A DNA stretch of 64,000 bases from the NCBI RefSeq assembly GCF_000422725.1, contig NZ_KE383909.1, positions 1,225,178 to 1,289,177 of the forward strand. The letters run 5' to 3'. The translations under genes were made by a program, and so were the position numbers. Below are positions 23,123 through 49,086 of this stretch, piece by piece. Each line of letters opens with the position of its first letter. Position 1 is the stretch's first letter. The notes under the pieces are model-generated. The model had not been told where the DNA came from. It was given only the letters and a program-made list of their open reading frames with translations, and searched no databases. Source of the DNA: Flavobacterium subsaxonicum WB 4.1-42 = DSM 21790. Lineage in GTDB: Bacteria > Bacteroidota > Bacteroidia > Flavobacteriales > Flavobacteriaceae.

Positions 23123-23374
23123 CTTGGTAAAGCGTAGCATTAGCTGTTCTTTGAAACGACTATATTTCGATCACCGCAAGCATTTTCTTTCTATCTGAAA
23201 AAGTTAATAATTATTTTAATTGCTATATTGTTTGAAATCAAATCATTTTGACGGTTATAATAGACAAAATATAGACAATTATATTTTATGGATAAAAATG
23301 AGGAAACCCTCAAATTTATTCAAAATGAGTTAATTACATTTGAAATCAATATTAATCTATAACTAAAATATTTT

Positions 23375-23725
23375 ATGTCTAAAGAAACAATTTTAAACGA
23401 AGACTGGGCTGACTATGATGATCGTAAAAAAAAAGAACATGATAAGCATTTTTTTTCATGTGAGGAAGAATGGGAAGTTGATTATCTTGTAAAAAAGATT
23501 CATGGAAAATTTCCTAGTATATCAACAGATAAAATTAGAACAGCTATCAAATTATGTTGCAATTCTGTTCCTGCACCACGTTCTCGAAAAACATTTGTTG
23601 AATGTGTTATGAATCGCCTTGGCTTTGGTGATGATCACTCTGGAGGCGGTAATCCTCCACCAAATCCAGGCCCTGGTCCACAAAATCCCCCAACAGCTCC
23701 TAGCGATCGAAAAGTGGGTTTATAA
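23375..23725 (+). CDS. Module A small protein with Pro/Gly-rich C-terminal tail (candidate conjugation partner)
   Basis: A 116-residue protein with a compact helical domain (about 25-90: EEWEVDYLVKKIHGKFPSIS, then IKLCCNSVPAPRSRK and FVECVMNRLGF). A flexible tail made almost only of G, N, P and Q follows (about 92-110) and ends in RKVGL. The tail is long enough to reach an enzyme active site, and a Gly lies one residue before the end. In a locus with an E1, an E2 and a JAB protease, that C-terminus is the obvious candidate for processing and conjugation. It is 2 bp upstream of the E2-E1 gene. No ubiquitin beta-grasp is apparent from sequence, so target rather than modifier is equally possible. 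Family not recognised. Confidence 0.7.
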   Translation: MSKETILNEDWADYDDRKKKEHDKHFFSCEEEWEVDYLVKKIHGKFPSISTDKIRTAIKLCCNSVPAPRSRKTFVECVMNRLGFGDDHSGGGNPPPNPGPGPQNPPTAPSDRKVGL

Positions 23726-23727
23726 TT

Positions 23728-25539
23728 ATGTGGTATATTGATAATCCAGATAGGTGGGTTCGAGAACAACACGACCTTCAAGTAAATAATATAGCTTTTG
23801 ACATTGACGAAGAATTAAAAAAGCAAGGCATTTTACGCCTTAATTTAGAGATTACAGAACAAAGTAATTTCGCACTAATTCCAAATGAGTTTTTGCCTAT
23901 AAAGTTGACAGCAGTTTTCCCAAGTTCATATCCTTACTTTAGACCAGAGATTTATGCTGAGGAAATTAATTTACCCAGACATCAAAATATCATAGATAAG
24001 AATCTTTGTTTACTGCCGCGATTATCGTCTTATTGGATGCCCCAAAGTACATTAGTTGAATATCTTAAAGAGCAATTACCTAAAGTTTTAACTGAAGGTG
24101 TAATAATAGATTCAGATATTTTAAAAGCAAACGCAGACGAACAAGCAGAGCCAGTTTCCGAGTACTATCCAAGTATTAATAATGCTTCGATTATTTTTGA
24201 CACAACGGTTTTCGATACAGTGGTAGTTGCAAATCATCCTGTTGAGCTAATCGGCAAAATAAAATTGGGTATACCCTTAAATGCTGAAGTTCCTACAAGG
24301 ATGGTTGCGCTTGAAAGTTTTGATTTAAAGGGTGACTCTTTAGGTAAGTTGCCTGAAGAAATATCGACTATATTTCCATCCAGGATGACTGGTTTTGTTT
24401 ATCGTTTGAAAGAAAGGCCCCCTTATGGTGATGCGAACAAGGATTATAATTGGCTTATAAAATTAATAGATTTTGAAAAAAAAGACAAATTTTTAAAAGC
24501 TAATCGTCCCGTGACGCTTAAAAAAGGCCACACGATTGAAAATGTCGTAGGAATTACATTTCCAGAAGAACACGTTCCTGGTAGTATTTCTTGGGGATGG
24601 CTCTTTATAATTACAGTAACCCAACCTTTAGAAAAAAAGCAGAACGGAAGAAATGTTTCAATTGCTAATAGAGGTACATATTATTCAAAAGTTAATCGTA
24701 TTAGTTTAAATGAGCTAAATTTTCGTAATCCATCCTTAAAACTACTATCAGGAAAAAAAGTTGTAGTTTTTGGTTTAGGTGCTCTAGGTGCCCCATCTGT
24801 TATTGAATTTGCGAAAAATGGGATAGGAGAAATTACTTTAATAGATTTTGATACGATCAGTGCGGGAACGATAGTTAGATGGCCTCTTGGGGTTATGTAT
24901 GCCGGAATGTTTAAAACTGATGCTTTAGAGCGTTTTTTAAATGAGAATTATCCCTATATAAAAATAAATAAATTTAATTATCGAGTTGGAATTCCTGAAG
25001 TTGGAATACGAAAATTACCTATAGATTTATCTAATCTTCCATCAATCGAAGAAATTATTTCTGGGGCTTCTCTTATTTATGATGCTACAGCTGAAACAGG
25101 TGTTAGTCATTATCTTTCGGAGGAAGCAAAAAAGCGTGATATTTCATTTCTGTCAATATATGGTACTCCTGGGGTTTGGGGTGGTGTAGTAATGCGGTAT
25201 ATTCCCAAACTTACAAAAGGATGTTGGATGTGCTTTCAGTATGCATTAAAAAATGGAGATATTCCCCATCCACCAACTAATCTTAATGGAAACGTTCAAG
25301 CTGTTGGTTGCGGAGACATAACATTTACAGGAACAAGTTTTGAATTAGATAATATTGTAAGCGCTGGAGTAAGATTGGCAATAGGTACTATCTGCAAGTT
25401 GGAAAGCGGGTATGCTGATATGCCGGGCGATATTGGGATACTCTCATTGATCGACGATCACGGAAATCCGATTTTTCCAAAATGGACGACACACCAATTG
25501 ACAAAACATCCTGATTGTCCATACTGCAATAAAGAATAG
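23728..25539 (+). CDS. E2-E1 fusion enzyme (Cap2-like ubiquitin-transfer protein)
   Basis: The 603-residue fusion starts with a UBC-like E2 domain (about 1-140), where RHQNIIDKNLCLLPR and SYWMP reproduce the HPN..CL..W.P hallmark, with C94 as the likely E2 cysteine. A linker domain follows (150-330). The ThiF-type E1 (about 340-600) has the nucleotide loop VVVFGLGALGAP, IDFD, and a probable catalytic C528 in VGCGDITFTGT. Zinc ligands C499, C502 (CWMC) and C597, C600 (CPYC) are intact. The layout matches Cap2 of type II CBASS, but no CD-NTase or effector gene is present. The start overlaps nothing, and the JAB gene follows 4 bp later. Predicted cytoplasmic conjugation of a protein C-terminus to a target. 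Confidence 0.88.
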   Translation: MWYIDNPDRWVREQHDLQVNNIAFDIDEELKKQGILRLNLEITEQSNFALIPNEFLPIKLTAVFPSSYPYFRPEIYAEEINLPRHQNIIDKNLCLLPRLSSYWMPQSTLVEYLKEQLPKVLTEGVIIDSDILKANADEQAEPVSEYYPSINNASIIFDTTVFDTVVVANHPVELIGKIKLGIPLNAEVPTRMVALESFDLKGDSLGKLPEEISTIFPSRMTGFVYRLKERPPYGDANKDYNWLIKLIDFEKKDKFLKANRPVTLKKGHTIENVVGITFPEEHVPGSISWGWLFIITVTQPLEKKQNGRNVSIANRGTYYSKVNRISLNELNFRNPSLKLLSGKKVVVFGLGALGAPSVIEFAKNGIGEITLIDFDTISAGTIVRWPLGVMYAGMFKTDALERFLNENYPYIKINKFNYRVGIPEVGIRKLPIDLSNLPSIEEIISGASLIYDATAETGVSHYLSEEAKKRDISFLSIYGTPGVWGGVVMRYIPKLTKGCWMCFQYALKNGDIPHPPTNLNGNVQAVGCGDITFTGTSFELDNIVSAGVRLAIGTICKLESGYADMPGDIGILSLIDDHGNPIFPKWTTHQLTKHPDCPYCNKE

Positions 25540-25543
25540 ACAA

Positions 25544-26017
25544 ATGAGATATAAAATTTGGATTAAGAATATTATCATAAATGACATTTTTTCAAGTGGT
25601 CTTATGTGGTCGCCACTGGAGACGGGAGGTATACTTATGGGATATCGTGTATCACTTTGGGAGTTTGTAATTACAGATCTAATTGGTCCAGGTGAAGATG
25701 CAGTCCATAATTATAATACATTTCAACCAGATCAACTATTTCATCAGAGTAAAATTAGTGAGATATATAAAGAATCTAATCAGCTAATAACTTATTTAGG
25801 AGACTGGCATACACATCCCAATTCATATTCATATTTGAGTTGTGAAGATAAAAAGACTATTAGTAAAATTGCTAATCATAAAGAAGCACGTTTGCAAAAT
25901 CCTTTAATGATTGTTGCTGCACCTCCAATGCATGATATAAAAGTATGGGTATATCATAAAGTGAAGCTATTTAGTGCTGTAAAATATATTGAAGCTGAAA
26001 TTGTAATTTTTGATTAA
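25544..26017 (+). CDS. JAB/JAMM-family deconjugating metalloprotease (Cap3-like)
   Basis: The 157-residue protein carries the complete JAMM set: E26 in ETGGILMGY, then H89 and H91 in GDWHTHPNS, S99 and D102, with the standard H-x-H-x7-S-x2-D spacing. It should be an active zinc isopeptidase that removes or trims a C-terminal conjugate. It is the third gene of module A and opposes the E2-E1 enzyme. The frame opens 4 bp after the E2-E1 stop. Two hairpins follow in the downstream repeats, the second being a strong terminator. Confidence 0.92.
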   Translation: MRYKIWIKNIIINDIFSSGLMWSPLETGGILMGYRVSLWEFVITDLIGPGEDAVHNYNTFQPDQLFHQSKISEIYKESNQLITYLGDWHTHPNSYSYLSCEDKKTISKIANHKEARLQNPLMIVAAPPMHDIKVWVYHKVKLFSAVKYIEAEIVIFD

Positions 26018-26061
26018 TTATGTTTTTTTTGTAAATCTATCTTATTTAAAAACAATTAAAT

Positions 26062-26268
26062 GTGTATAAGATGTTCGACTGGAGTCCCTCTCAGTCCACA
26101 AAAAGACAAACAACGCCATTGGAAGACAATGGCTTTGTTGTTTCATTATTTATACTATTTTAAGCCCTTCAAAAAATGTCAAAACAGGTATCAGGTGTTC
26201 GATAGAAACCCCATTCACTCCACAAAAGACAAATAACGCCACTGGAAGACAGTGGCGTTATTTTTTTA
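26062..26268. repeat. Paired island repeat, copy R1 (after module A)
   Basis: Two related units about 124 bp apart, measured at TGTTCGA (26072 and 26196). Each unit has a TGTTCGA...CCC...CCACA core that resembles a tRNA T arm and 3' end. A hairpin follows each: GCCATTGgaagaCAATGGC at 26115-26133 and the longer one at 26232-26262. The first unit has a diverged left end. The same pair occurs at 27329 and 33363. Confidence 0.8.
26232..26267 (+). terminator. Strong terminator inside repeat R1
   Basis: AATAACGCCACTG (26232-26244) pairs perfectly with CAGTGGCGTTATT (26250-26262) around GAAGA, followed by a T run. Confidence 0.85.
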
Positions 26269-26447
26269 ACGTACTTCACAAATTGCTTCGCTTAATTTTT
26301 TTGTCTCAAAAATAGATTTCAATTTACTAAATAACATCAATCGTAGTATTCTGCTTTTGTCGTACTATTGTAACTATGAAGAATGGTGAAAACATTTATT
26401 TGAAGATTATCAATTTGATTAATATTACATAGCTTAGCATATAAATT

Positions 26448-27194
26448 ATGGCTGATATAAAAACAGAGGAGTCCTACGCGGAACATAAAGACACCACTAA
26501 GGAAGTAGGGATGTCACTGATTTCTAATAATTTCGACAATGCACTGGACTATGCTGAGATAGGCTTAGATGCCTTTGTTAGCGATGATATTCTAAAGGAA
26601 ATACCGATTGTTAAAACAGTAGTTGGTGTTGTTAAATCTGGATTAAAAGTCAAGGAAATATTCTTTGCTAAAAAAATTCTAACTTTTCTTAAAGAATTTC
26701 ACTCTGGAAAATTGTCTGAGGATAAATTTGACAAGTTTCGGGAGGAATTCGCTGCGAACGATAAATATCGTGCGAAAGTGATGGAGCAAATAATGATATT
26801 CAACGATACTTTCCTTCAAATCGAAAAGTCGAAAGTGTTTGCCAACCTTTTTGCTGCCCACCTGAACGAAGCCTATGGCTGGGATGATTTTGTCAATTTG
26901 AGCTACTGTCTCAATCAGTTAAACATGTATGGCGTGTCATTATTTGATGACATGGCAGAGTTCAAAACTCCTTTTTATGGAGGTATATATGACGATGCAA
27001 AGCACCGCTACCCTCTGCTTACCAATTCTGGCACAATCTCCATTTGGGGTAATCATCTTGACATCACACCGTATGGGCTATACATGTACCATTATGGTAT
27101 TAAAGGAAAAGTAGACGAAGATATTAGTGAGGCTTATCCTAGCATATTTAAGGAGAAGGCAACTAACGAAGCCAAGAGTTCAGAGCAACAATAA
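26448..27194 (+). CDS. Module B: single protein of unknown function
   Basis: A 248-residue, mostly helical protein. A hydrophobic helix near 52-75 (IPIVKTVVGVVKSGLKVKEI) could be a membrane-insertion or packing segment. A charged helical core follows (80-150, LKEFHSGKLSEDKFDKF). The C-terminal part (150-235) has aromatic strands (LTNSGTISIWGNHLDITPYG). No signal peptide. The middle recalls DUF4393/Abi-alpha-like proteins to me, but I cannot confirm it. It stands alone between repeat copies R1 and R2, the position of a one-gene cargo cassette; an anti-phage effector is a guess from context. Confidence 0.65.
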   Translation: MADIKTEESYAEHKDTTKEVGMSLISNNFDNALDYAEIGLDAFVSDDILKEIPIVKTVVGVVKSGLKVKEIFFAKKILTFLKEFHSGKLSEDKFDKFREEFAANDKYRAKVMEQIMIFNDTFLQIEKSKVFANLFAAHLNEAYGWDDFVNLSYCLNQLNMYGVSLFDDMAEFKTPFYGGIYDDAKHRYPLLTNSGTISIWGNHLDITPYGLYMYHYGIKGKVDEDISEAYPSIFKEKATNEAKSSEQQ

Positions 27195-27328
27195 CTGCCA
27201 AGTTTCAAGGGACCGGTTGGTATAGCTATTTTTTGATCGATGTTTCCAACCACAACATTTTATATATCTAAATATTCATTAGTATTTCAGTGCTGGTGAT
27301 AGTCTTTTATTAACTATTTTTAAAAAAA

Positions 27329-27497
27329 GTCAAAACAGGTATCAAGTGTTCGATAGAGATCCGCCCACTCAACAAAAGACAAACAACTCCATTGGAAGAC
27401 AATGGCGTTGTTGTTTTTACATTTATTCTATTTTAAGGCTTCAAAAAACGTCAAAATTGGTATCAAGTATTCGATAGAAATCCCGCTCACTACGCTT
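27329..27497. repeat. Paired island repeat, copy R2 (between modules B and C)
   Basis: Unit 1 (27329-27449) has GTCAAAACAGGTATCAAGTG, TTCGATAGA and a hairpin (27387-27405, CCATTGgaagaCAATGG within AACAAC...GTTGTT, then T5). Unit 2 (27450-27497) repeats only the first half and stops at CGCTCACTACG. The two TTCGA cores are 121 bp apart. By eye, unit 1 is about 85 percent identical to the R3 unit. Confidence 0.8.
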
Positions 27498-27517
27498 TTC
27501 TCAAATGGGGTATAATT

Positions 27518-30500
27518 TTATTCGAGCGTTTCACTTACATACCTTTTGTCAATCTGGCTTAAGATGGTAGGATCTTGTATTTTATCATCTTTAGCGAATA
27601 AAATTACTTTCGACATAACTTCTGCTGATTTTGGGTCATCATCTGCAAATGGTAAAAATAGACGCCCCCTATGCTGCGAATGTACCGGTAAGACTGACAA
27701 ATACTTTCCGGGAACCTGGTGTACAACAGCACTGCCTAAATGAATGCTATAGTTAGCCATTGTGCCTTTAACCAAAGCATGGTTTTGCTTTATTTCAACA
27801 TTTTTAATTTTAAACAGTCGTAATGTTTCCTTAATCAATACAACCCTCATTTCTATAGATGAATGGCTTGCCTCAGGGTCTACACCACCTACATGGGCAA
27901 CGCTGACTACTAAATCTATATCCCGCATTACTTCAGAAAATATCCTTGGGTTAATATCTTCAAATGCAATATTTTTATAATCCTTTAAAGAATGAAATTC
28001 AATAGTCTCTAAGGTAGGACTCTCTATATCTGCAGGAGAAAACCAATTTGCCATGGCATACATTTTAACCTGGTAGCCCTCTTTATGAAAAACTTTTTGC
28101 AATCCTTCTTCATAATCTACCTTCCATCCTCTATTCTTCAATAAAGCTAAAGTTTGCTTAGGATGCACCTGGTGTCCCGCATACCTTCTGGAAACAGATT
28201 TCTCGCTTAATTCATCAACTGTGGGTATATACAACTCCCTAAACACCTGCTTAAAAGGCTGAATATGCTTATTATCAAAACAATATGCCTGATAATCTGT
28301 CCATACATTATTTTTATGTAAATCATAACAATGGGCAATTCTTAAAGTTTGATGTTCATCTAAAGCAGTTATTTCACCTAATGCATTAACAAGATTCCCG
28401 TTTATATAAAAGCCATTTCTATCATCATTAGATATAAAAACCAGCTTCTCCAGGTGTCTGGAAATAATGGGATGCTCAAAAAGGTTTTTGATCTCTGAAA
28501 ATAAAAACTCATCTCCTCTAACCATGCTTTCTTCTAATCCTTTTTTAGAGCGTATCCATTGCTCGCGCATGGTTTTTCTGTAACCGGCTAATTCAAGAAT
28601 AGCTTTATCTTTTTTTATGTTTGGCGGAACAGCCTTTAGTTCTTTACCTCCTTTTAAAGTAACTATATCTGCTTTACCTTCTTCGTTTATTATAAGGCGC
28701 ACAGCTACATCATCAATAGTTACTTCTGTTTCTTTTGATAAAATATTTTGTACCTGTTTGGTCTCCATAGCCCAGGTTAAACGCACAGGATCAGGATATC
28801 CAGCATTTCGGGCTAGATTTTCTAAGGCAACCCTAACAGCAAGTGCTTCGCTGGTCAGTTTCATAGCGCCAAATTCTCTGCTCTCCTTTTTAAATTGCTG
28901 TAAATATTCGTATCGTGCTAAAATATCTTTTTCAGGGCTTGTTTTACTTAAAGGCACTAATCCGTAAACACGTAAATAATCCTGATCCCTTTTGTTTTTA
29001 ATTTTTGCAGTAACCTCTCTTATTTTAAGGTCTCCGGTAATTGTATCTGCATACAGGCGCGCGCGCCTGTGCCCATTTCCATCTGTTACATACTTAGCAG
29101 CTTCATATAAAAGTTCCCATTTTAGCTTACCTAATTGCTTATAGGCTGACATAAACCAATTGCTATCAACAGCGCCGTCTTTAAAATCCTGAAGGTCTAT
29201 AACCGAGAATTTAGCGGCCTCACTTTCCAATTCAGAATTTACATTGCTGTAAGCTGCTGTTTTTGTATGTGCATGTAACCACCAAATTCCTTCGTCCAGG
29301 CCTTTCCAGTCTAAATAGTTACTAATATATTTTTGCCATTGCGGAGCATATATAGCAGCCTGAATAAGCCGCTCTTCAGATATTTTTGCCGTGGCAATAT
29401 GCTCGTTAAATACTTCTTGAGTGTCAGAGTTTAACGGATAGCATTTTTTTAATAAAAAACTAAATAGTTTTTGCTTAGTTAATTCTGTATAGCTCCAGGA
29501 ATAAATGTAACCTTTATATAAGCTTGATTTGCCTAAGCCGGTAAGCAATTCTATAAACCGGGTAATTCCGTATATTTTTTGAAAAGCCTGTACAAAATGA
29601 GTGACCGGAGTATTAGAATCGCCGCGCTTTATTTCAACGTCTAAAAATGCATTCCTGATCTGGTCAATCATTGGTGTCAGAAACGGGAATTTCTTTATTA
29701 AATTTTCACTCCCAAAGTGGTTGTAATGCTTGGTTTCCCCTGTTAAAACAGACAATCTTTCAGATTCAACAAGCCCTTCATATAATTCGCCTTCAGATAT
29801 TATCTTTTGTTCGTAAGCCAAGCAGTACATATAAACAGGCGGTTTTGCGTGCTCTACGTTTTTTTTTAATCCCGATAATTGCCTCCATCTGTATAAATTC
29901 CAAACATTTTTACTTTGTTCTTTAGTTAATAACTCTAAATTAATACTGTTTAAATAGATATCACAAAATCCCTGGCTTTGCCAGCCTTTACCTTTATCAG
30001 GTCCATAGTAATATTGGTTCTTTGGTGGCACATGCTCATAATTCAGGATATCTTTTGGCATATCAGAAAATAAAGCGCTAGAAGCATCAATCAAAAAATC
30101 TTCTTTTTCTTTAAACGGGTAGTTTAGCTGTAATGCCTTTATTATACCCAATATTGGATTATTCCACTCATACGCGGGCTTCATAGGATTTGGAATAAAA
30201 TCGAAAAAATAAAACACATGCTTTTCAAGGAAATCCTTAAATATTTTTCTGTCGCAATTGCCCACAAGGGTTAACAGAAATAAATCCCTTTCGGCTAACC
30301 CAGAATTTTCAAACCAGCTACACCAAATACCGTATAAAGGATAATTTTTTATAATTGCTTCTTTATCAGCATTGTCTGCCAGAATTTTTATTTGCCTGAA
30401 GGAATTTGCTAAAAGTATCGTTTCTTTTCTGTTATCATGATACTCAGTAGTATACTCATAATTTTTATGTTCCTCAAATAATTTATAAAGCTTAGTAATT

Positions 30501-32602
30501 TCATCTTTTATATGAGTCATTGGTTTAGAAAAACCATACTTATGCATTTTTACAGCTTTGGCATACAGCGAATTATTATCTTGTTTAGGTAACGAATAAT
30601 CTGAAATTTGGCCCGGGTTATAAAAACCATACCCATTTTCCGCACTTAGAGCCTCTTCTTTTTTTGAAGGCTCAAGTTGTTCTATAAATTTTAATTCTTT
30701 TTCGGTAATTTTTGGGCGTAATGCATAATCGCTTACCCAGTTGTTTACTTTTTTTGCCAGCCTGTCTTTTTTTTGCAGTTGCAGCATCATGTCTAAAGCC
30801 GACATACGCTGCTCTAAATCGCCATTATCTAATATCTTATCAACAAAATTTTCAATTTTACTGTCTTTCTGGCGCAGGATTATCTCAATTAAATTCTTTT
30901 TTAAATTAGAACTTTTTCGTTTAAATAAGTCCTGGAATAGTGCTAACTCCTCATCTCTTAATTCTACTTTTTTAAGCGTATATATTGCCGAGGCCACGAG
31001 CGATTCTCCCCTGTCTTTTAAAATGCGTAAAGCAAAATTTCTCTGGAAATCAGTAGGAATTTTTTTATCATCTTCAGGGCTGCTGCTTGAACTATAAAAG
31101 GAATACTGGTAAAAATCGCCTAATACCCTCCTCGCCAGAGTAGTCCGGAGATCTATCGACATTTCTTCAAAATGAGATAAGATGCGCTCCAGCTTATCAG
31201 CATCATCACCTATTAAATTAATAGCGGCCGTATAAAGTGCGTCTTTTTCAAATGTAACTTTTAACCATGAAAATACTTTGCTTTCAAAAACCTTGTTCTT
31301 AACGGTGACAGACTGTGCCAGGCCATAAACTTTTTCAAAAAAACCAGGGTAATCAGCATTGTTAATATAAAAGCCCGATTTTGAATTGGCTCCTAATAAG
31401 TTATTCATACGTGGGAGGGTAAAAGCCAGTACCTGCAGGTTATCATCTTTAAGCGCCTTAAAATACAGTGGCATTTCGATATACGGGTCTTGCGTTTCAC
31501 CAGTAAATTTTAATGCAAGGCATTTTTTTTCAACCGATCCTTTTTCCAGCAATTCATGTAAATAAGGAACCGTTGCCTCTACATCAAAAACACCCTGTAC
31601 CCACAAAGCCATGTAGGCTTCATTATTGTTTTTACTGTAAATTCCGGTTGAAATAGATTCTTGATTTGAGAAATAAGACGCTGCTAATTGAATAATGTTT
31701 CTTATAGTAGTTTCTTTCTCTGCCTCCCACCCCAAACCTGTCCAGGTATCAATAGCTCTTACAACCGATGAAAAACGCGTTAGCTTATGTTCTATAATTA
31801 CATTTATCATGTATTGTATAGCTCCAATACTGGTTTCATCTAGCGCCTCTAAAATTGTTTGCCGTAGTCCTTCCTGTCGCTGTGCAGCAAGCAATAGCTT
31901 TTCTACAAGTTGCCAGCACTCTTTTTTATTACTGTTTAAAAGTGCTTTAATGATATTGCGGGATACCTTTCCCTGCGGATGTTTATTAAAAATAATGTCT
32001 TCAAATAACTCAAATAAACCGGTCTTATCCATATCTATTGCTGCCGACCATAGCATGAACTGGTTAGTATTATTTGTAACCTCAGTATCAAAACAAATTT
32101 GTTCTTCAAAAGTTAAATCATAAAAAGTTGTATTTGGGTAACTATATGTACTAGAAACATTAACTAATGATCGCAAAAAATTGATTTGGTTAACCAATAA
32201 ATATTTTTTATTTGCCGGTGCCCTGAACGATCGCCTTTCATAACCATTTTGAAACATTTTTTGTGGCAGCCTGCTCCACGCTTCTTTTACGTAGTCAGCA
32301 CATTTTTCTCCAAAAAAATAAACTAATAAACTATAATAGTTTTTATCTTCCCACATGCCGTCTGTTATCCATTTTTCAAAAGGAGTACATTTATCAGAAC
32401 CAAGAAAAACATACCAATTATTATAATCATGCCGGGTGAGAGTAACTAAAGCCAGGCCAAATTCGGCTACTTCTTTCTTTAATTTATTTTTAGATAATAG
32501 CTTAGAAAGCAAATTACTATTAATAACTTCCTGCAACTCTTTTTTATATCTTTTAACCGGATCTTCTGTTACTTTAAGTTTAAGTATAACTTCAATAGAC
32601 AT
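27518..32602 (-). CDS. Module C: giant DUF4132 (MolR-like) protein
   Basis: The 1694-residue protein has an N-terminal alpha-solenoid (about 150-650) of HEAT-like helical pairs (for example AIDMDKTGLFELFEDI and LGDFYQYSF), a long middle region and a C-terminal DUF4132/DUF5724-type domain (about 1200-1690). Landmarks in the last part are YVTDGNGHRRARLYADTITG, LTWAMETKQVQNIL and LPVHSQHRGRLFLPFADDDP, the last near the C-terminus. No catalytic motif is established for this family. Relatives occur with AAA and VWA proteins and in E. coli as MolR. No signal peptide. It lies 31 bp after a small partner gene. A complete, undamaged frame of this length in an island argues for selection. Confidence 0.8.
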   Translation of the reverse strand: MSIEVILKLKVTEDPVKRYKKELQEVINSNLLSKLLSKNKLKKEVAEFGLALVTLTRHDYNNWYVFLGSDKCTPFEKWITDGMWEDKNYYSLLVYFFGEKCADYVKEAWSRLPQKMFQNGYERRSFRAPANKKYLLVNQINFLRSLVNVSSTYSYPNTTFYDLTFEEQICFDTEVTNNTNQFMLWSAAIDMDKTGLFELFEDIIFNKHPQGKVSRNIIKALLNSNKKECWQLVEKLLLAAQRQEGLRQTILEALDETSIGAIQYMINVIIEHKLTRFSSVVRAIDTWTGLGWEAEKETTIRNIIQLAASYFSNQESISTGIYSKNNNEAYMALWVQGVFDVEATVPYLHELLEKGSVEKKCLALKFTGETQDPYIEMPLYFKALKDDNLQVLAFTLPRMNNLLGANSKSGFYINNADYPGFFEKVYGLAQSVTVKNKVFESKVFSWLKVTFEKDALYTAAINLIGDDADKLERILSHFEEMSIDLRTTLARRVLGDFYQYSFYSSSSSPEDDKKIPTDFQRNFALRILKDRGESLVASAIYTLKKVELRDEELALFQDLFKRKSSNLKKNLIEIILRQKDSKIENFVDKILDNGDLEQRMSALDMMLQLQKKDRLAKKVNNWVSDYALRPKITEKELKFIEQLEPSKKEEALSAENGYGFYNPGQISDYSLPKQDNNSLYAKAVKMHKYGFSKPMTHIKDEITKLYKLFEEHKNYEYTTEYHDNRKETILLANSFRQIKILADNADKEAIIKNYPLYGIWCSWFENSGLAERDLFLLTLVGNCDRKIFKDFLEKHVFYFFDFIPNPMKPAYEWNNPILGIIKALQLNYPFKEKEDFLIDASSALFSDMPKDILNYEHVPPKNQYYYGPDKGKGWQSQGFCDIYLNSINLELLTKEQSKNVWNLYRWRQLSGLKKNVEHAKPPVYMYCLAYEQKIISEGELYEGLVESERLSVLTGETKHYNHFGSENLIKKFPFLTPMIDQIRNAFLDVEIKRGDSNTPVTHFVQAFQKIYGITRFIELLTGLGKSSLYKGYIYSWSYTELTKQKLFSFLLKKCYPLNSDTQEVFNEHIATAKISEERLIQAAIYAPQWQKYISNYLDWKGLDEGIWWLHAHTKTAAYSNVNSELESEAAKFSVIDLQDFKDGAVDSNWFMSAYKQLGKLKWELLYEAAKYVTDGNGHRRARLYADTITGDLKIREVTAKIKNKRDQDYLRVYGLVPLSKTSPEKDILARYEYLQQFKKESREFGAMKLTSEALAVRVALENLARNAGYPDPVRLTWAMETKQVQNILSKETEVTIDDVAVRLIINEEGKADIVTLKGGKELKAVPPNIKKDKAILELAGYRKTMREQWIRSKKGLEESMVRGDEFLFSEIKNLFEHPIISRHLEKLVFISNDDRNGFYINGNLVNALGEITALDEHQTLRIAHCYDLHKNNVWTDYQAYCFDNKHIQPFKQVFRELYIPTVDELSEKSVSRRYAGHQVHPKQTLALLKNRGWKVDYEEGLQKVFHKEGYQVKMYAMANWFSPADIESPTLETIEFHSLKDYKNIAFEDINPRIFSEVMRDIDLVVSVAHVGGVDPEASHSSIEMRVVLIKETLRLFKIKNVEIKQNHALVKGTMANYSIHLGSAVVHQVPGKYLSVLPVHSQHRGRLFLPFADDDPKSAEVMSKVILFAKDDKIQDPTILSQIDKRYVSETLE

Positions 32603-32633
32603 TATATATATTTTTAAGGTTGGAATGTTTGTA

Positions 32634-33068
32634 CTACCAGTAGCTACCTGCTAAAAAAGTAAGCCTGATAAATGTAAATGCTTTGTTTTCTTCTAAATTT
32701 ATTTCTGTATTTAGATCATCAAGTTCATCATCACCATAGAAAATAGTATACATACCATCTTCAAAAGCCAAAAGGGCAGTTTTTATGGCAGTGGATAAAT
32801 CAATTTTATTGTAATTATAAATGGATCCAAAACCTGCTTTGCCCGTATCTGTTAAAATGGGTAAATAATTTTCATTAGGAAGATGAATTTTGTCTGTATC
32901 GTCAAATACAAACGATGAAGAATTAAATAATTGTACCTGGTGCTCTACAATTAATTCAATAAATTTTCGAGTGGCGATAAAAGGGTTTGTCACAACAAAA
33001 TCAATACTTTTCTGCTCAAGTATTGGGTACTTTTTCCCTAATTGCTTTACCGATATATTTATATTCAT
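32634..33068 (-). CDS. Module C small partner of unknown function
   Basis: The 144-residue acidic protein begins MNINISVKQLGKKYPILEQK and has mixed alpha/beta predicted structure with a D/E-rich segment (FYGDDELDDLNTEINLEENK). No motif recognised and no signal peptide. It is the first gene of the minus-strand pair with the DUF4132 gene; spacing 31 bp. It may be an immunity, chaperone or sensor partner. Confidence 0.65.
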   Translation of the reverse strand: MNINISVKQLGKKYPILEQKSIDFVVTNPFIATRKFIELIVEHQVQLFNSSSFVFDDTDKIHLPNENYLPILTDTGKAGFGSIYNYNKIDLSTAIKTALLAFEDGMYTIFYGDDELDDLNTEINLEENKAFTFIRLTFLAGSYW

Positions 33069-33362
33069 TTTATACAGAGAAAGAGGTTGTGTAAATAAAG
33101 TAAGCTTTTAAAGATTTTAAAGATAAAAGTTTTCATTAAACTGATTACAATTACACCAAAAAAAATATGCGTGTTAACTAATATGGTAATTAACTCATAG
33201 AACTTAAATAATATAGAAGCAAATTTCACCTGGCCCAAAATGGAATTACTAAATTTTACTAGGGAGTTTAATTGCCCTATTTATACATAAATTACAGCAC
33301 TACATTAACTCGTCCTAAACCACTATATAATCTAGTTTGTGTTTTTAATCTCATTAAATAGC

Positions 33363-33533
33363 GTCAAAACAGGTATAAGGTGTTCGGTAGAAATCTCACT
33401 CATTCCACAAAAAGACAAACAACACCATTGGAAGACAATGGCGTCGTTGTTTTTACATTCATCCTATTTTAAGGCTTCAAAAAAAGTCAAAACGGGTATT
33501 AAGTGTTCGATAGAAGTCCCACTCACTCCACTG
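33363..33533. repeat. Paired island repeat, copy R3 (right end of module C)
   Basis: Unit 1 (33363-33485) has GTCAAAACAGGTATAAGGTG and a hairpin CCATTGgaagaCAATGG (33424-33440), followed by GTTGTTTTTAC. Unit 2 (33486-33533) repeats the first half, ending CTCACTCCACTG. The cores are 123 bp apart. Beyond it the sequence becomes the usual left flank of a Bacteroidota tyrosine integrase. Confidence 0.8.
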
Positions 33534-33596
33534 AGACAGTTTTAGGCATACTTTGTAAAGTTGCCAAAAACGCACAAAACGTCTCGAAAAGCCTTT

Positions 33597-33631
33597 AAAG
33601 CCTGCAAATTTTGATATTTGCAGGCTTTTTT
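33597..33631 (+). terminator. Strong terminator between R3 and the integrase remnant
   Basis: AAAGCCTGCAAAT (33597-33609) pairs perfectly with ATTTGCAGGCTTT (33616-33628) around TTTGAT, then T run. The flanking 33541-33835 otherwise holds no gene; short direct motifs (TGCAC, TGTAA) resemble integrase arm sites. Confidence 0.8.
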
Positions 33632-33835
33632 ATTTTCCCTGCAACATGCAAAATTTTCAAAAATGCACATAAAGTTGGGTCATTTGCCGGTGCAATGTAA
33701 ATTGCCCGAAAAATTGCACCAAAAAATGCACTGTAAGACAGTGTAAAACACTGAAAGACAACGGGGGTAATACCCTTGATGATTTTAAATGATTGGTTCA
33801 TAATTCTACATTATTAATTTTTAATTTTTTGAATT

Positions 33836-34033
33836 ATGTTAGAGAAAAGCTATGGCTTAAGCTTCATGTTAAAGCCGTCCCGCAAGGAACCTACCCTGCG
33901 TTACGTGTACGCACGTGTATCCGTAGATGCTATCCGTAAAGAGATTTCAACCAAAAGAACCTGGGATCCCAAGCGCTGGGATGCCAAATCTGAACGCGCA
34001 ATCGGTGCAAAAGAAGATGCCCGAATGATGTAG
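33836..34033 (+). pseudogene. Truncated site-specific tyrosine recombinase (arm-binding domain only)
   Basis: The 65-residue frame MLEKSYGLSFMLKPSRKEPT... continues with RYVYARVSVDAIRKEISTKR and TWDPKRWDAKSERA. This is the N-terminal arm-DNA-binding domain of Bacteroidota tyrosine integrases (normally about 400 residues). It stops at TAG 34031 with no core-binding or catalytic (R-H-R-Y) part downstream. The remnant marks the former integrase end of the island. Confidence 0.8.
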
Positions 34034-43198: not shown

Positions 43199-44167
43199 TT
43201 AACGCTTATTTTTAATATGCTTTTTTATCATATAATCGGTTATTTTTTTAAGCGTTTTATGCGTTTCAGGGTGTAAGCCGGGGTAGGTAAAATACTCGTA
43301 TACTTTATCGGCAGATTTGCCGTACCAAACCCGTGGGCTACCGTCAGTATTATAAAAAGTAGTGGTATCAGACACCTCTATTTTTTTTTGGTAAGTAAGC
43401 AAATCTTCGCTTAAAGGCACAGTTGGGTTATTTGCTAAAGCATTAACATTATTATCGCAGGGCGCGGTTTCGTAATGATCTTTATTCCAAACCATACAGC
43501 CATTACTATCTAAAAATAAATCTTTAACCGCAAATGCAGCCACAGTACAAAATAGCACAATAATTACTGCTATTTTAAGTAAATTTTGCCTTGCCTGCAA
43601 TCTTTCGCTACGCCCAACGGCAAAATATTTTTGATGCACAACTTTGGGTGCTGTTGTGCTAATATCAATTATATCAGGCTCCGTCTTTTCTAACGGCTCA
43701 TTTTCTACCCCTTCTTTTCCTAACACATCATTCTGCCGACTACTATCCCTATAAAAAGACTGAATTTGTCCCACTCCCCCATTTTCTATCCCAAGAGAGG
43801 TTTTATCCTTACCAACTCCTGTTAAGCCTTCCTGCTTTCTGAATTTTTGAAAAGGTCTTGGCTCAAGGTCTACTAAAATTGCCAGCAACTCTATACTTGC
43901 CACACTTTTAGGAGCAACACCTCCCCTTAAAAATCTTACTAAAGGCCTAAATTTATCATTATCAAACTTCTTAATACTGCTAAAGCTTAATGCTTCAGGA
44001 CCAAAAAAACGTTCGTAGATTTTTTTGTCGTCGCTACTTAAAGCATCAAACAGTACTAAACTTAATTCTTTAAGCTTAGCGGTAGTTGCAGGCAATAATA
44101 AATCGGCGTGTGCACCTTCTTTTACACTTTCGTACTGAGCTAAAATCGCTTTTTTATAATCATCCAT
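43199..44167 (-). CDS. Single-pass membrane protein of unknown function
   Basis: The 322-residue protein has an N-terminal soluble helical region (1-200) including FFGPEALSFSSIKKFDNDKF and a Ser/Gln-rich linker. One membrane helix follows near 200-222 (LLKIAVIIVLFCTVAAFAV), then an approximately 100-residue domain predicted outside with GCMVWNKDHYETAPCD and two cysteines. The layout (cytosolic N, single helix, outer C) resembles anti-sigma or small sensor proteins, but no motif confirms it. Not recognised. Confidence 0.7.
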   Translation of the reverse strand: MDDYKKAILAQYESVKEGAHADLLLPATTAKLKELSLVLFDALSSDDKKIYERFFGPEALSFSSIKKFDNDKFRPLVRFLRGGVAPKSVASIELLAILVDLEPRPFQKFRKQEGLTGVGKDKTSLGIENGGVGQIQSFYRDSSRQNDVLGKEGVENEPLEKTEPDIIDISTTAPKVVHQKYFAVGRSERLQARQNLLKIAVIIVLFCTVAAFAVKDLFLDSNGCMVWNKDHYETAPCDNNVNALANNPTVPLSEDLLTYQKKIEVSDTTTFYNTDGSPRVWYGKSADKVYEYFTYPGLHPETHKTLKKITDYMIKKHIKNKR

Positions 44168-44528: not shown

Positions 44529-44705
44529 ATGAAAAAAATAGTTTTGCTGGCAGCCCTATCGCTGCTGGGCAGTATAGCAATGTCTTGCGATAACGAAAGT
44601 GTGAGCGATACCAACAACCCTGATAGCTATGCCGATGGGTTTAGTACCGATGATGGCCTAATACCCATTCCGCCCCCGCCCCCACCGCCCGTAAAGCCAA
44701 AATAA
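44529..44705 (+). CDS. Tiny lipoprotein with polyproline tail
   Basis: A 58-residue protein starting MKKIVLLAALSLLGSIAMSC with a clean lipobox (AMSC, C20). The mature part of about 38 residues is acidic (DNESVSDTNNPD) and ends in a run of seven prolines then VKPK. A short hairpin (AGCCAAA/TTTGGCT, 44694-44713) overlaps the stop. Function unknown; probably surface- or periplasm-anchored. Confidence 0.7.
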   Translation: MKKIVLLAALSLLGSIAMSCDNESVSDTNNPDSYADGFSTDDGLIPIPPPPPPPVKPK

Positions 44706-44745: not shown

Positions 44746-46485
44746 ATGAAACTTAATTTTAAGATTTATTCCCCGTTTTTTATTGTCCTTATAATTGCAA
44801 TAGTGTTTTCATGCAATAATAAAAATGCGGCCAAACCTATATCTGATGAGGTATATTATAACGATGATACTTTAGCCTATATTAATACAACTTTAAATAA
44901 AGCAATAGCCAACAGTAACGGGCAGGCATACGATAGTGCTTTTTATTACTACAATAAAGCTAAACAGCTGTATACGCTGCATAAAGACAGTTTAAGGTGT
45001 GGCTATGCACTGCTTAGAATGGCCGAAACACAAAAAATTTCGGGCGATTATTTTGGCAGCGAAGAAAACGCTACCGAGGCTTTGTTATACCTTAAAAACA
45101 GCCACAACCAAATATACCTGAGCGAAGCTTACAATTTATTAGGTATTTGTTACAGAAAGCTTTTAAACTTCGATAAGGCAATTGAATATTATAACCAGGC
45201 TGCAAAAATTGCCAAAGATTCTATATCTAAATCTATTGTACAAAATAATATTGCAATGGTTTATTTTGATAAAAAAGATTATACATCGGCATTAAAAATT
45301 TTAACCGCTTTAAATGCATCTGCAATTGTACAAACAAACTTAAGTGCCAAGGCAAGAGTATTAAATAACATAGGCAGCATTTATCAAACCATTAATAATC
45401 CTGCTGCGTTAAGTTATCTTCAAAATTCGCTTAACATAAGGCTAAAAACAAACGACCTTCCGGGTATGTTATCGGGCAACATACAACTGGCTAAATATTA
45501 CGCTGCTAAAAATAAAAAAGTTGCCGCAAGTTATGCACTTAAAGCGTACAATATTGCCACAAAAATTAAAAATCCAGACGAACGTTTAACCGCATTACAA
45601 ATCCTGATTAATGTTTTGCCGGAAAAAGAATCTAAAAAAGAGGCTATTGGCTATTTTACTATTAACGATAGCCTTACTAAAATGCGGCTTAAAAATAAAA
45701 GCGAATTTGCAAGTATAAAGTACAACTCTAAAAATACCGAGGCAGAAAATTTAAGGTTAAAAAATCAACAAACTCAAAATAAGCTACAGGCACAAAACGA
45801 CAGAGTACTTAAACTTGTATTTGTTATGATTGCCTGTGGTGCAGTAGCTACTGCATTTTTTATTGTTATTGTACAAAGGCTTAAGCATAAAAAAGCAAAA
45901 ATTATTGAGGTGTATAATACCGAAAGCCGCATATCTAAAAAAATTCATGATGAGCTGGCTAACGATATGTTTGATACCATGATGTTTACCGAATCGCTAC
46001 ATTTTGATACCGATGATAAAAAAGAAACACTTTTAAAGAGGCTCGATTCTGTTTACGAAAAAACACGCGATATTTCCAGAGAAAACAGCAGTGTAGATAC
46101 CGGCAACGATTTTTATATTGTGCTTATAGAAATGCTGGCCCGCTATAAAACGCCACAGCTTAATGTACTGCCCGTAAATACCCATTCTGTTTCGTGGAAT
46201 GTGCTGGACGAGCATAAAAAAGTTACCATATACCGTGTATTGCAGGAGTTTATGGTAAACATGAAAAAACACAGCCAGGCTACCCTGGTAGTTGTAAAAT
46301 TTACGGTAGCCGATAAAAAACTACATATTAGCTATGCAGATAACGGCGTAGGGATTAAGAAAAATAATTTTTTTTACAAAAACGGATTGCAAAATGCGGA
46401 AAACCGCATAAAATCAATAAACGGTACCATTACTTTTGATGACATAACTAAAGGATTAAAAATTTCAATTGCAATTCCACTATAA
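44746..46485 (+). CDS. TPR-containing sensor histidine kinase, lipid-anchored
   Basis: A 579-residue protein with an SPII-like start (lipobox FSC). TPR repeats (about 50-290: YNLLGICYRKLLNFDKAIEY and similar) and a coiled coil precede a membrane helix (about 353-376, LVFVMIACGAVATAFFIVIV). A HisKA_3-type dimerisation motif (ISKKIHDELANDMFD) and an HATPase_c domain (VLQEFMVNMKKHSQA, YADNGVGIKK) follow. The TPRs are periplasmic, the kinase cytoplasmic. It is followed 8 bp later by its receiver protein. A membrane-spanning TPR kinase of this kind is common in Bacteroidota; ligand unknown. Confidence 0.9.
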   Translation: MKLNFKIYSPFFIVLIIAIVFSCNNKNAAKPISDEVYYNDDTLAYINTTLNKAIANSNGQAYDSAFYYYNKAKQLYTLHKDSLRCGYALLRMAETQKISGDYFGSEENATEALLYLKNSHNQIYLSEAYNLLGICYRKLLNFDKAIEYYNQAAKIAKDSISKSIVQNNIAMVYFDKKDYTSALKILTALNASAIVQTNLSAKARVLNNIGSIYQTINNPAALSYLQNSLNIRLKTNDLPGMLSGNIQLAKYYAAKNKKVAASYALKAYNIATKIKNPDERLTALQILINVLPEKESKKEAIGYFTINDSLTKMRLKNKSEFASIKYNSKNTEAENLRLKNQQTQNKLQAQNDRVLKLVFVMIACGAVATAFFIVIVQRLKHKKAKIIEVYNTESRISKKIHDELANDMFDTMMFTESLHFDTDDKKETLLKRLDSVYEKTRDISRENSSVDTGNDFYIVLIEMLARYKTPQLNVLPVNTHSVSWNVLDEHKKVTIYRVLQEFMVNMKKHSQATLVVVKFTVADKKLHISYADNGVGIKKNNFFYKNGLQNAENRIKSINGTITFDDITKGLKISIAIPL

Positions 46486-46493
46486 TTCAGCGT

Positions 46494-47159
46494 ATGTTTA
46501 AAAAAATTCTGGTTGCCGAAGATATAGACAGCATAGGTATGGGCCTTAAAATGCTGTTAGATACATTAAATATCCAAACCGTTTATTATGCAAAATACTG
46601 TGATGACGCTTTTTTAAAGCTAAAGAAAGCCCACTTGGATGACGACCCTTTTGACTTGCTTATTACAGACCTCTCCTTTACAGGTGGCAACCGTAACAAT
46701 ATTCTTGCCTCGGGCGAAGATCTTATAAAGGCGATACGCGAGCAAAACTGGCCCCTTAAAATAATTGCCTATTCTATAGAAGAGCGTGGCTATAAAATAC
46801 GCTACCTGTTAGACGAATGCAACATAAACGGCTATGTGCTTAAAAGCCGCGATAGTGCCGCCCAGCTACAAAAAGCCATTACCGAAATTTATAAGGGCAA
46901 TAATTATCTTTCGCCACAACTATCGCATTTAAGAAAACCCGATATGCTTTTAGAAATGGATGCCCTGGACCTCGAAATTATTACATTGCTTGCCGATGGC
47001 CTTAGCCAGAACGAAATTGTAGAAGCTTTTAAAACCGAAAGAAAAAAAGCGCAAAGCATAAGCAGCGTAGAAAAACGCATTATAAAAATGCGTACCTCGC
47101 TACAGGCCAGGAACACAACCCACCTTATTAGTATTGCCAAAGATATGGGACTTGTGTAA
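46494..47159 (+). CDS. Response regulator with LuxR-like output
   Basis: The 221-residue protein has a receiver (1-125: ED at 9-10, phospho-acceptor D in LLITDLSFTGG) and a C-terminal helix-turn-helix region (about 150-221: DALDLEIITLLADGLSQNEI, SVEKRIIKMRTSLQARNTTH). The receiver contains an atypical insertion after the acceptor (SFTGGNRNNILASGED). It pairs with the TPR kinase. Its natural targets could include the shared 48-bp promoters found just downstream. Confidence 0.88.
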   Translation: MFKKILVAEDIDSIGMGLKMLLDTLNIQTVYYAKYCDDAFLKLKKAHLDDDPFDLLITDLSFTGGNRNNILASGEDLIKAIREQNWPLKIIAYSIEERGYKIRYLLDECNINGYVLKSRDSAAQLQKAITEIYKGNNYLSPQLSHLRKPDMLLEMDALDLEIITLLADGLSQNEIVEAFKTERKKAQSISSVEKRIIKMRTSLQARNTTHLISIAKDMGLV

Positions 47160-47181
47160 CCGCCCAATTATTAATTTTTAC

Positions 47182-47229
47182 AAAATGAGGATTCCCTTAC
47201 AATAGGCATTTTTAAGTGTATTAGGTTTG
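47182..47229 (+). promoter_or_regulatory. Shared 48-bp promoter block, copy 1 (upstream of DUF4177-like gene)
   Basis: The block starts AAAATGAGGATTCCCTTA and ends in TAGGTTTG (47222-47229), a perfect TAnnTTTG. Compared with copy 2 at 47888-47935 it differs at about 8 of 48 positions, and the two are exactly collinear. Confidence 0.75.
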
Positions 47230-47252
47230 ACAAAATTTAAACTTTACCCACA

Positions 47253-47483
47253 ATGGAATATAAAGTTGTACCCTTTGTTGCCTCAATAGATTCAAAAAGC
47301 GGCAATACCAACCATGTAGCCCAACAATTAGAAGCTACCATTACAAGCTATACCGCCAAAGGCTGGACTTACGTAGGGCTTGAGAGTGTTACCACCTTTG
47401 TACAGCCAGACGCCGGATGCTTTGGCATAGCAGCCAAACCAGGCTACACTACCGCTAATCAAATGGTGGTGTTTAAAAAATGA
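47253..47483 (+). CDS. DUF4177-like small protein
   Basis: The 76-residue protein MEYKVVPFVASIDSKSGN... has the short beta-alpha-beta layout of DUF4177-type domains (EYKVV at the start, GWTYVGLESV in the middle, NQMVVFKK at the end). Function unknown. Its stop overlaps the yidD ATG by 4 bp (ATGA). It is driven by the shared 48-bp promoter block. Confidence 0.7.
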   Translation: MEYKVVPFVASIDSKSGNTNHVAQQLEATITSYTAKGWTYVGLESVTTFVQPDAGCFGIAAKPGYTTANQMVVFKK

Positions 47484-47800
47484 GGCATCTTTTACTCGTA
47501 ATAATTAAATTTTACTGGTTGGCCATACCCAAAAATAAGCGACGTAATTGCTTGTTTAAAAAATCGTGTTCGCATTTTGTTTTTGAGGTTACAGCACAAC
47601 ATGGCTTAGTTAAAGGATTACAGGCATTGCAATACCGATTTAAAAATTGCAGGCCAGGTGCCGCACTGTTTATTAATCCGGTTACCGGGCAAACAGAAAT
47701 GATATTGCCCGGCCACAATATTATTAGCCAACAGGATATTGCCCAACACCTTTTACTAAAATATAACGGCGTTGCCCCCAAATTAATTCCCCAGAATTAA
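47480..47800 (+). CDS. yidD: YidD membrane-protein insertion efficiency factor
   Basis: The 106-residue protein has the YidD core: CLFKKSCSHFVFEVTAQHGL and LQALQYRFKNCRPG, with three conserved cysteines, after a basic N-terminus. It is a peripheral inner-membrane protein that helps YidC-dependent insertion. It overlaps the DUF4177-like gene by 4 bp, so it is translationally coupled. The usual rpmH/rnpA/yidC context is absent, suggesting a second or displaced copy. Terminator at 47833-47852. Confidence 0.85.
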   Translation: MRHLLLVIIKFYWLAIPKNKRRNCLFKKSCSHFVFEVTAQHGLVKGLQALQYRFKNCRPGAALFINPVTGQTEMILPGHNIISQQDIAQHLLLKYNGVAPKLIPQN

Positions 47801-47832
47801 TGACTATTTGTTTTTTTATTTCTTAGTACTTG

Positions 47833-47859
47833 TACCGGCTTAACAGCCGGTATTTTTTT
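47833..47859 (+). terminator. Terminator after yidD
   Basis: TACCGGCT (47833-47840) pairs with AGCCGGTA (47845-47852), followed by seven T residues. Confidence 0.9.
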
Positions 47860-47887
47860 GCCTGCATATATTTATGAAAATTTTATA

Positions 47888-47935
47888 AAAATAAGGATTC
47901 CCTTAAAATTAACATTTTTAAGTTTAGTAGGTTTG
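47888..47935 (+). promoter_or_regulatory. Shared 48-bp promoter block, copy 2 (upstream of HsdR-N-like gene)
   Basis: The block starts AAAATAAGGATTCCCTTA and ends in TAGGTTTG (47928-47935). The conserved upstream part, about 25-40 bp before the -7 element, is where an activator or alternative sigma contact would be expected. Confidence 0.75.
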
Positions 47936-48003: not shown

Positions 48004-49086
48004 ATGGACTTTAAAGATCAGATAAAAATGTTGGGCGACAGGGTTGGTAAACTTAAAGCCCAGGTAAATACAGAAGAAGCTACAAAAAATGCTTTTATAA
48101 TGCCTTTTATTAAAGAGTTAGGCTATGATGTATTTAACCCCTTTGAGGTTACACCGGAACTGGTTGCAGACATAGGTATTAAACAAGGCGAAAAAATAGA
48201 TTATGCCATTATGCAAAATGGCGAACCCATTATTCTTATAGAGTGCAAACACCATGCTGCCCCGTTAAATGTAAACAATGCATCGCAGTTGTTTAGATAC
48301 TTTCATACCACAAAGGCTAAATTTTCTATACTTACCAATGGCATTGAGTATAGGTTTTATACTGATTTGGTTGAGTCTAACAAAATGGATGAGAAACCCT
48401 TTTTCTCTTTTGATATTACCGATATAAAAGACAACCAGATCGAAGAGCTTAAAAAGTTTCATAAAGCATATTACGATTTTGATAATATAGTTAACACAGC
48501 CAGCGACCTTAAGCACACTAATGAGCTTAAAAAACTTATCAATGCCGAATTTGCAAGTCCGAGCCCGGATTTTGTAAAGCATTTTGCACGTCAGGTATAC
48601 CCAAGTGTTATAACGGCAAAGGTATTAGAGCAGTTTACTAACCTTACAAAAATATCACTGCACCAATATATTAGCGACCTTATAACAGAGAGATTAAAAT
48701 CAGCACTTACAAAAGAGAGTGCTGTTGTACAGGAACAGGATGCCGCCTTAGCACCCGAAGCACCGGCAGATCCTAACCAGATTGTTACTACCGAAGAAGA
48801 GCTTGAAGGTTTTATGATCATCAAAACAATATTAAGGCAGAAAATACCCGTAGCAAGGGTTACCTACCGCGATGCCCTTTCTTATTTTGCCATACTATTA
48901 GATAACAACAACCGCAAAACTATTTGCCGCCTTTATTTTAATGGCACCAAAAAATACTTTGTAACACTTGATGAACAACGTAAAGAGGTACGTAGCGAAA
49001 TTACTTCTCTCGACGATCTATTTAACTATTCTGATGCGCTGTTTAAAGTTATAGAAAACTACGAAAAAGCTAAAGAAATAGTCTAA
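48004..49086 (+). CDS. Orphan HsdR-N-like nuclease
   Basis: The 360-residue protein has a type I restriction HsdR N-terminal-like nuclease domain (about 25-150) with KIDYAIM (D66) and PIILIECKHH (E80, K82), the PD-(D/E)XK metal set, plus FNPFEV and FSILTNGIEYRF motifs. The C-terminal half (190-360) is helical then beta (FNGTKKYFVTLDEQRKEV). HsdR motor, HsdM and HsdS are absent, so it is a stand-alone nuclease-like protein, widespread in Bacteroidota. Whether it cleaves DNA alone is unknown. It shares its promoter block with the DUF4177-like gene. Confidence 0.85.
   Translation: MDFKDQIKMLGDRVGKLKAQVNTEEATKNAFIMPFIKELGYDVFNPFEVTPELVADIGIKQGEKIDYAIMQNGEPIILIECKHHAAPLNVNNASQLFRYFHTTKAKFSILTNGIEYRFYTDLVESNKMDEKPFFSFDITDIKDNQIEELKKFHKAYYDFDNIVNTASDLKHTNELKKLINAEFASPSPDFVKHFARQVYPSVITAKVLEQFTNLTKISLHQYISDLITERLKSALTKESAVVQEQDAALAPEAPADPNQIVTTEEELEGFMIIKTILRQKIPVARVTYRDALSYFAILLDNNNRKTICRLYFNGTKKYFVTLDEQRKEVRSEITSLDDLFNYSDALFKVIENYEKAKEIV

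Follow-up and report, generated by a model that had tools for sequence, protein, structure and literature searches.

That a response regulator controls genes from a dyad in front of their promoter is, as a kind of switch, already known. Among the described systems, the closest is that of RcsB: solved RcsB is among the best structure matches to the profile of the regulator treated here, and the RcsAB box, which we take to resemble TAAGAATATTCCTA, shares with our sites the form of a 14-bp dyad with TA ends. The Rcs phosphorelay differs in its components, since the locus described below encodes a single TPR kinase with a single regulator, and none of RcsC, RcsD and RcsA is encoded with the regulator at this locus. 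Unlike the RcsAB box, moreover, the dyad has other operator letters and is combined with a flavobacterial sigma-A box at a fixed spacing of 22 nt, and one such promoter lies within the kinase gene. NarL, VraR and DesR likewise consist of a receiver and a C-terminal region, and their structures match at lower scores than RcsB; the regulator of this study differs from them by a divergent HTH, which when aligned to 4zmr has 6 extra residues before the helix presumed to recognise DNA, and NarL heptamers differ from the dyad. Class II activators such as CRP bind with the centre of their site at -41.5. The position of the dyad centre and the rigid spacing are shared with CRP, whereas the regulator belongs to an unrelated protein family and the box is of the Bacteroidota sigma type. 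In Bacteroidota sigma-A promoters, a -33 TTTG is located about 19 nt upstream of the -7 box. For Flavobacterium psychrophilum, PMC9723704 places the sigma-A box TAnnTTTG at -12 to -5. In the literature searched, mostly outside subscription journals, no description was found of the motif, of its geometry in the phylum, of the kinase-internal copy or of the variable cargo, nor was the literal 14-mer TACGGATTTCCGTA.

The window, a stretch of 64,000 nt of the Flavobacterium subsaxonicum WB 4.1-42 genome, contains two collinear blocks at 47182-47229 and 47888-47935. The original prediction had described them as 48-bp blocks with about eight differences, and direct alignment without gaps gives 7 differences in 48 bases; AGGATTCCCTTA, CATTTTTAAGT and the terminal TAGGTTTG, which it had listed as parts of the blocks, are all found there. 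In a repeat search, the pair extends to 57 nt with 82% identity (47173-47229 and 47879-47935). A pattern for the 42-nt core matches twice in the window and never in 100 dinucleotide shuffles. The genome-wide motif search proposed with the prediction returned these same two copies at ≤3 mismatches in the whole 4.64-Mb genome, and at the same threshold the core occurs in 0 of 149 other genomes, so that at first sight it seems private to this one. Dispersal of the block at non-promoter positions, which had been named as the observation that would speak against promoters, is not what is seen, because the genome has two copies and the sole non-intergenic relative resembles an intragenic promoter; a dispersed DNA repeat is thus ruled out. 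A structured RNA element was rejected as well: between 46400 and 49400 no family reached its threshold, and the four matches below the gathering score belong to unrelated families.

Beyond what had been noticed at first, what is conserved is a skeleton: the Bacteroidota sigma-A box TAnnTTTG and, separated from it by a spacer of exactly 22 nt, a dyad of 14 bp (TNNGG-N4-CCNNA) on its upstream side. This unit has two more copies in the window, one within the kinase gene and one far upstream (Table 1). The repeated block is, in other words, a promoter architecture, very probably a conserved on-switch, with a putative protein-binding dyad placed 22 nt before the promoter box.

Table 1. Features of the window around the dyad-22-box elements (positions in the window).
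Feature	Position	Strand	Description
Candidate in-trans site	23299..23342	+	dyad TGAGGAAACCCTCA, its 5-bp arms perfectly symmetric, then 22 nt and TACATTTG; less certain
Ubiquitin-like defence-type operon	23375..26017	+	116-aa ORF; 603-aa E2-E1 (Prok-E2_B, ThiF); 157-aa Prok-JAB
Divergent gene	43199-44167	-	322 aa; no Pfam/NCBIfam match at E 0.01
Small lipoprotein-like ORF	44529..44705	+	58 aa, Pro-rich tail; directly upstream of kinase; relatives at other loci
TPR sensor histidine kinase	44746..46485	+	579 aa; TPR_12, HATPase_c
P_RR	46395..46438	+	dyad TGCGGAAAACCGCA, 22 nt, TACTTTTG; in last codons of kinase gene; predicted start near 46443; upstream of response regulator
Response regulator	46494..47159	+	221 aa
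P1	47186..47229	+	dyad TGAGGATTCCCTTA (47186-47199), 22-nt spacer, -7 box TAGGTTTG (47222-47229); predicted start near 47234; upstream of DUF4177-like/yidD pair
DUF4177-like protein	47253..47483	+	76 aa
YidD	47480..47800	+	106 aa
Intrinsic-terminator-like hairpin + T run	47832..47853	+	between yidD and P2; region no richer than shuffles
P2	47892..47935	+	dyad TAAGGATTCCCTTA (47892-47905), 22-nt spacer, -7 box TAGGTTTG (47928-47935); predicted start near 47940; upstream of HsdR_N-like gene
HsdR_N-like protein	48004..49086	+	360 aa; PF04313 HSDR_N, E 7e-18

Both window blocks carry the -7 box TAnnTTTG of Bacteroidota sigma-A promoters; the box agrees with the flavobacterial one in PMC9723704, and, being part of the search pattern, it is present in every site counted below. 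With the box at -12 to -5, as placed there, a 22-nt spacer puts the dyad at -48 to -35 with its centre at -41.5, and this centre, together with the rigid spacing, appears to fit a class II activator. The sites differ from the flavobacterial sigma-A promoter in that the TTTG about 19 nt upstream is absent and the dyad stands in its place: columns 14–17 of 59 sites read A-A-(A/G)-(G/A), a composition that partly reflects the pattern, in which column 14, the last A of the dyad, is fixed and excludes TTTG at exactly 19. Similarly, three of the seven pairs of the dyad are set by the pattern. Of the four that are free of it, two show complementary bases in 47 and in 33 of 53 sites, compared with 13 and 6 for the two at the centre, so the dyad is composed of symmetric arms and an unsymmetric core.

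The gene between P_RR and P1 encodes the best candidate for the protein that binds the dyad. A receiver domain with a phospho-accepting Asp is recognisable in it from PF00072 (E 1e-5; 26.1 bits, below the cut-off of 30.2), from D59 and K117, invariant across 23 sequences, and from the match to the RcsB receiver. The family profile matches the solved structures of RcsB, VraR, NarL and DesR, near full length in the case of 4zmr and over residues 4–189 in that of RcsB. The C-terminal DNA-binding domain is weakly recognised: this region has no Pfam HTH match, and the AlphaFold2 model, of low confidence with a mean pLDDT of 58, places four helices from residue 157, also at low confidence (block means of pLDDT 35–57 from residue 151). 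As for the kinase, its N-terminus looks lipoprotein-like by eye. The gene in front of it has counterparts elsewhere: ORFs of 55–70 aa with lipoprotein-like features, most of them carrying a tail rich in Pro (PIPVPPPKK, for example), precede 12 of 41 kinase genes under a narrow lipobox rule (L074, L075, L076, L082, L092, L097, L105, L108, L115, L117, L118 and L120); the ORF of the window was missed by the rule and added by eye. It is possible that this small lipoprotein is the ligand of the presumed periplasmic TPR domain of the kinase. Look-alikes of the divergent 322-aa gene were seen by eye at the equivalent place in L074, L118 and L193.

Very likely, the block is the operator-promoter of this adjacent TPR-kinase/response-regulator pair, which would activate P1, P2 and the intragenic copy in the class II manner. 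The RcsB/NarL-like regulator, which the kinase probably phosphorylates, would bind the 14-bp dyad as a dimer, occupy the place of the -33 box and recruit RNA polymerase as class II activators do. From P1, the DUF4177-like gene and yidD would be transcribed; from P2, located past the terminator-like hairpin, the HsdR_N-like gene; and from the copy in the last codons of the kinase gene, the regulator itself, in positive feedback. The analysis shows the sequence of the element, its spacing and conservation, the constraint on codons and the association with the regulator; we infer the identity of the binder, its dependence on phosphorylation, activation over repression and the signal.

The gene labels of the original prediction held for YidD and for HsdR_N, while the DUF4177 label is weak: the window protein has no Pfam match at E 0.01, and the protein of a relative reaches 18 bits where the cut-off is 25. 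In PADLOC, the HsdR_N-like protein matches LmuA, though weakly (E 1.7e-4, 20 bits). Because a terminator-like hairpin lies between yidD and P2, the HsdR_N-like gene probably needs its own promoter. When HsdR_N loci were chosen by protein homology (the 13 longest and strongest of 30), a 22-spaced site was found ≤1.5 kb upstream of the gene, at distances of 26 to 1419 nt, in 8 of the 13. Sites were present in seven of the eight loci from genomes with the regulator and in one of the five from genomes without it. That one is G003, an 89% complete genome with a site before HsdR_N in which the regulator was not found; in G017, the regulator is located elsewhere and the HsdR_N gene has no site. Ahead of the DUF4177-like gene, a site is found in all five loci, including G107 of another family, whose HsdR_N locus has its site at just this place. 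The cargo past the sites varies, and members of Excalibur, TerB and exo/endonuclease-phosphatase families pass the Pfam cut-offs.

How closely the element is tied to the regulator was seen in 60 loci taken as the best regulator matches (30 from a search of the genus, 29 from one of the order, and Flavobacterium akiainvivens IK-1). In these, the degenerate dyad TNNGGNNNNCCNNA followed by TAnnTTTG was sought with gaps of 5–45 nt allowed. On the strand of the regulator, all 119 dyad/box pairs have a gap of 22 nt; the opposite strand has three pairs, with gaps of 19, 29 and 40, and reversed letters give none. A site is found within the 3′ end of the kinase gene in 58 loci (not in L145 and L187) and downstream of the regulator gene in 50. 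A downstream site within about 1.5 kb is absent from L142, L144, L145, L153, L158, L162, L166, L184, L187 and L189, of which L166 is cut off by a contig end in the region concerned. Seven of the 60 loci are outside the genus (L184, L185, L187, L188, L189, L191 and L192), and six of these have the internal and four the downstream site.

The reverse approach started from the element. Among 398 genomes of the genus, 101 contain the skeleton TNNGGATTYCCNTA, 22 nt, TANNTTTG, and one contains its reversed control. The regulator (E 1e-15) was detected in 236 of the 398, namely in 96 of the 101 genomes with a site and 140 of the 297 others (Fisher 3e-20, uncorrected for relatedness, genome size and completeness); in the order, 62 of 246 genomes and 10 of 81 sampled genera have it. 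In the 60 loci fetched plus the window there are 73 exact sites, a non-random sample since loci were partly picked for two sites or for unusual ones. A same-strand ORF starts within 360 nt of 69 of them, 24 begin ≤160 nt past the stop codon of the regulator, and 40 have a regulator of the window type in the locus. The genome of the window itself has three exact matches: P1, P2 and a site at C6:9223, which is upstream of an 84-aa ORF with no regulator nearby. At ≤3 mismatches it has four, and as the reversed control also has four, such weak matches mean little alone.

The dyad could also be the operator of a different LuxR-type regulator that is common to many flavobacterial promoters, the neighbouring regulator being one user of it or a linked target. 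The remaining 33 of the 73 exact sites have no regulator of the window type in the locus and five of the 101 site genomes have none at E 1e-15, so this dyad, or one like it, may serve a further regulator. Furthermore, a separate class of 22-spaced sites, ending in TATGTTTG, recurs away from the regulator, for example in G182, G217 and G318. These sites (L083, L085, L113 and L124, from G182, G318, G058 and G217, respectively) are located at genes in fetched stretches without a window-type regulator, and possibly they form the regulon of another regulator. Even so, we consider this alternative unlikely, as loci picked by the regulator alone have the internal and downstream sites at the frequencies given above. 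In addition, the letters of the downstream half-sites shift with the clade of the regulator. The right half-site CCTTA or CCTCA is seen in four of 59 unique downstream sites, and all four belong to the three closest regulators, those of the window, F. akiainvivens (73% identical) and G177 (62%); G033, with a regulator 55% identical, has mixed half-sites, TAAGG with CCGTA. CCTTA is also found at one unlinked site of G217, and the internal copies in the clade of the window regulator have CCGCA. A second regulator in the same genome (C16:7999-8661), 46% identical to that of the window, is in turn preceded by an internal copy and followed by a TACGG-type site of its own, TACGGAAAACCGTA-22-TAAATTTG; the weight of this latter site comes from its place behind a regulator, because the search gave four control matches. 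The corresponding kinase-regulator pair (L096, 6147-7665) has a kinase ORF of just 286 aa, seemingly lacking the TPR part.

Common control of the DUF4177/YidD genes and the HsdR_N-like gene by the adjacent TPR-kinase/regulator pair, as originally proposed, is accordingly supported at the computational level. It is favoured because the element tracks the regulator across genomes and genera, with fixed spacing and with downstream half-site letters that follow the clade, and because it precedes the DUF4177-like and HsdR_N genes in the loci counted above.

The response regulator might instead be a repressor, whose dimer on the dyad blocks the -33 region so that the genes are induced on its release. 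Repressors act in the -33 region too, and the dyad abuts it. On the other hand, repressor sites usually tolerate shifts, and the exact spacing of 22 nt with a centre at -41.5 suits an activator better; repression thus appears improbable, slightly more so than the involvement of a different regulator.

Activation by the neighbouring regulator gains from the kinase-internal copy, where the element is superimposed on codons. Of the 60 loci, six gave no kinase frame and three of the other 54 deviated from the motif used, so the counts cover 51 loci. In these, the choice of codons is in line with the DNA motif and not with usage. At a variable residue (V, M, A, T or I), the third base is G in 49 of 51 codons, or in 32 of 34 when Met, which has no choice, is excluded. 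All 48 Asn codons in the site are AAC, CGT is used in 46 of 51 sites where 6.6 are expected, and both the first and the last codon of the box end in T in 51 of 51. The excess over codon usage ranges from 0.16 to 0.77 at the dyad and box and from -0.17 to 0.32 outside the 44-nt element; the ranges overlap because the two-fold codons GAA and TTT allow little excess. Spacer codons 8 and 10 are also in excess (0.35 and 0.48), which the dyad-box model leaves unexplained, and, the kinase sequences being related, the binomial values overstate the significance. Coding coincidence as the cause of the internal site is nevertheless ruled out by this test. There is good evidence, then, that the copy is a working intragenic promoter through which the regulator would feed back on itself, with transcription from it inferred.

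That P1 and P2 are alike merely because a promoter stretch was recently duplicated, without a common regulator, is highly improbable: their spacers are identical at 16 of 22 positions, where other sites agree with them at 9 on average, and copying may account for part of the likeness, but the codon constraint at the third copy, the different letters of F. akiainvivens, which retains the architecture with one box ending in A, and the diverged pairs before orthologues of the same two genes in the relative G006 (TATGGATTTCCGTA-22-TACTTTTG ahead of the DUF4177-like gene and TACGGATTTCCATA-22-TACATTTG ahead of the HsdR_N gene), with skeleton, spacing and box unchanged, all speak against it.

The regulon may extend to the site at 23299. 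The window has four degenerate 22-spaced sites, where 200 shuffles have 0.02 on average, and the other strand has two dyad/box pairs with gaps of 40 and 44. Site 23299 has the half-sites of its own clade, and 33 nt separate its end from the start codon of the 116-aa ORF. To build a profile model, R1, we used 53 of the 59 unique downstream sites, leaving out one each from L169, L172, L176, L179, L183 and L185. In the same genome its highest scores fall on P2, P1 and the C16 site and the next on C2:670420, C2:247312 and C9:82356; P1 and P2 were members of the training set and 150 of 6680 first-look candidates were scored, so the ranking is not exhaustive. In the window, R1 recovers neither 23299 nor the kinase-internal 46395, and since it misses the latter as well, this result weighs just partly against 23299. 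We regard the site as a candidate with perhaps an even chance of adding the E2-E1-JAB operon to the regulon. A search of 298 other genomes of the genus for the E2-E1 protein gave no match at E 1e-20. The operon is contained in a stretch of low GC (22000-34000; GC 0.32–0.36), which is probably an acquired island.

A broader picture can be offered tentatively, as speculation that is more doubtful than probable. The system may be a previously undescribed cell-surface signalling switch, in which the periplasmic TPR domain of the kinase would read the small exported Pro-tailed lipoprotein, and the regulator would fire interchangeable cargo genes (HsdR_N-like, nuclease-like, TerB-like and ubiquitin-like defence operons), each recruited by means of a portable dyad-22-TAnnTTTG promoter, with positive feedback from the promoter in the last codons of the kinase gene.

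For what appears to be an undescribed two-component family, these results provide a testable operator, a promoter geometry and a list of targets. They make the system a clean model for class II activation at Bacteroidota sigma-A promoters, add an intragenic promoter whose conservation under codon constraint is unusually strong, and give a first hint of the way in which flavobacteria switch on defence-like cargo. In many related flavobacteria, a single sensor-regulator pair very probably turns on several separate genes, among them its own.
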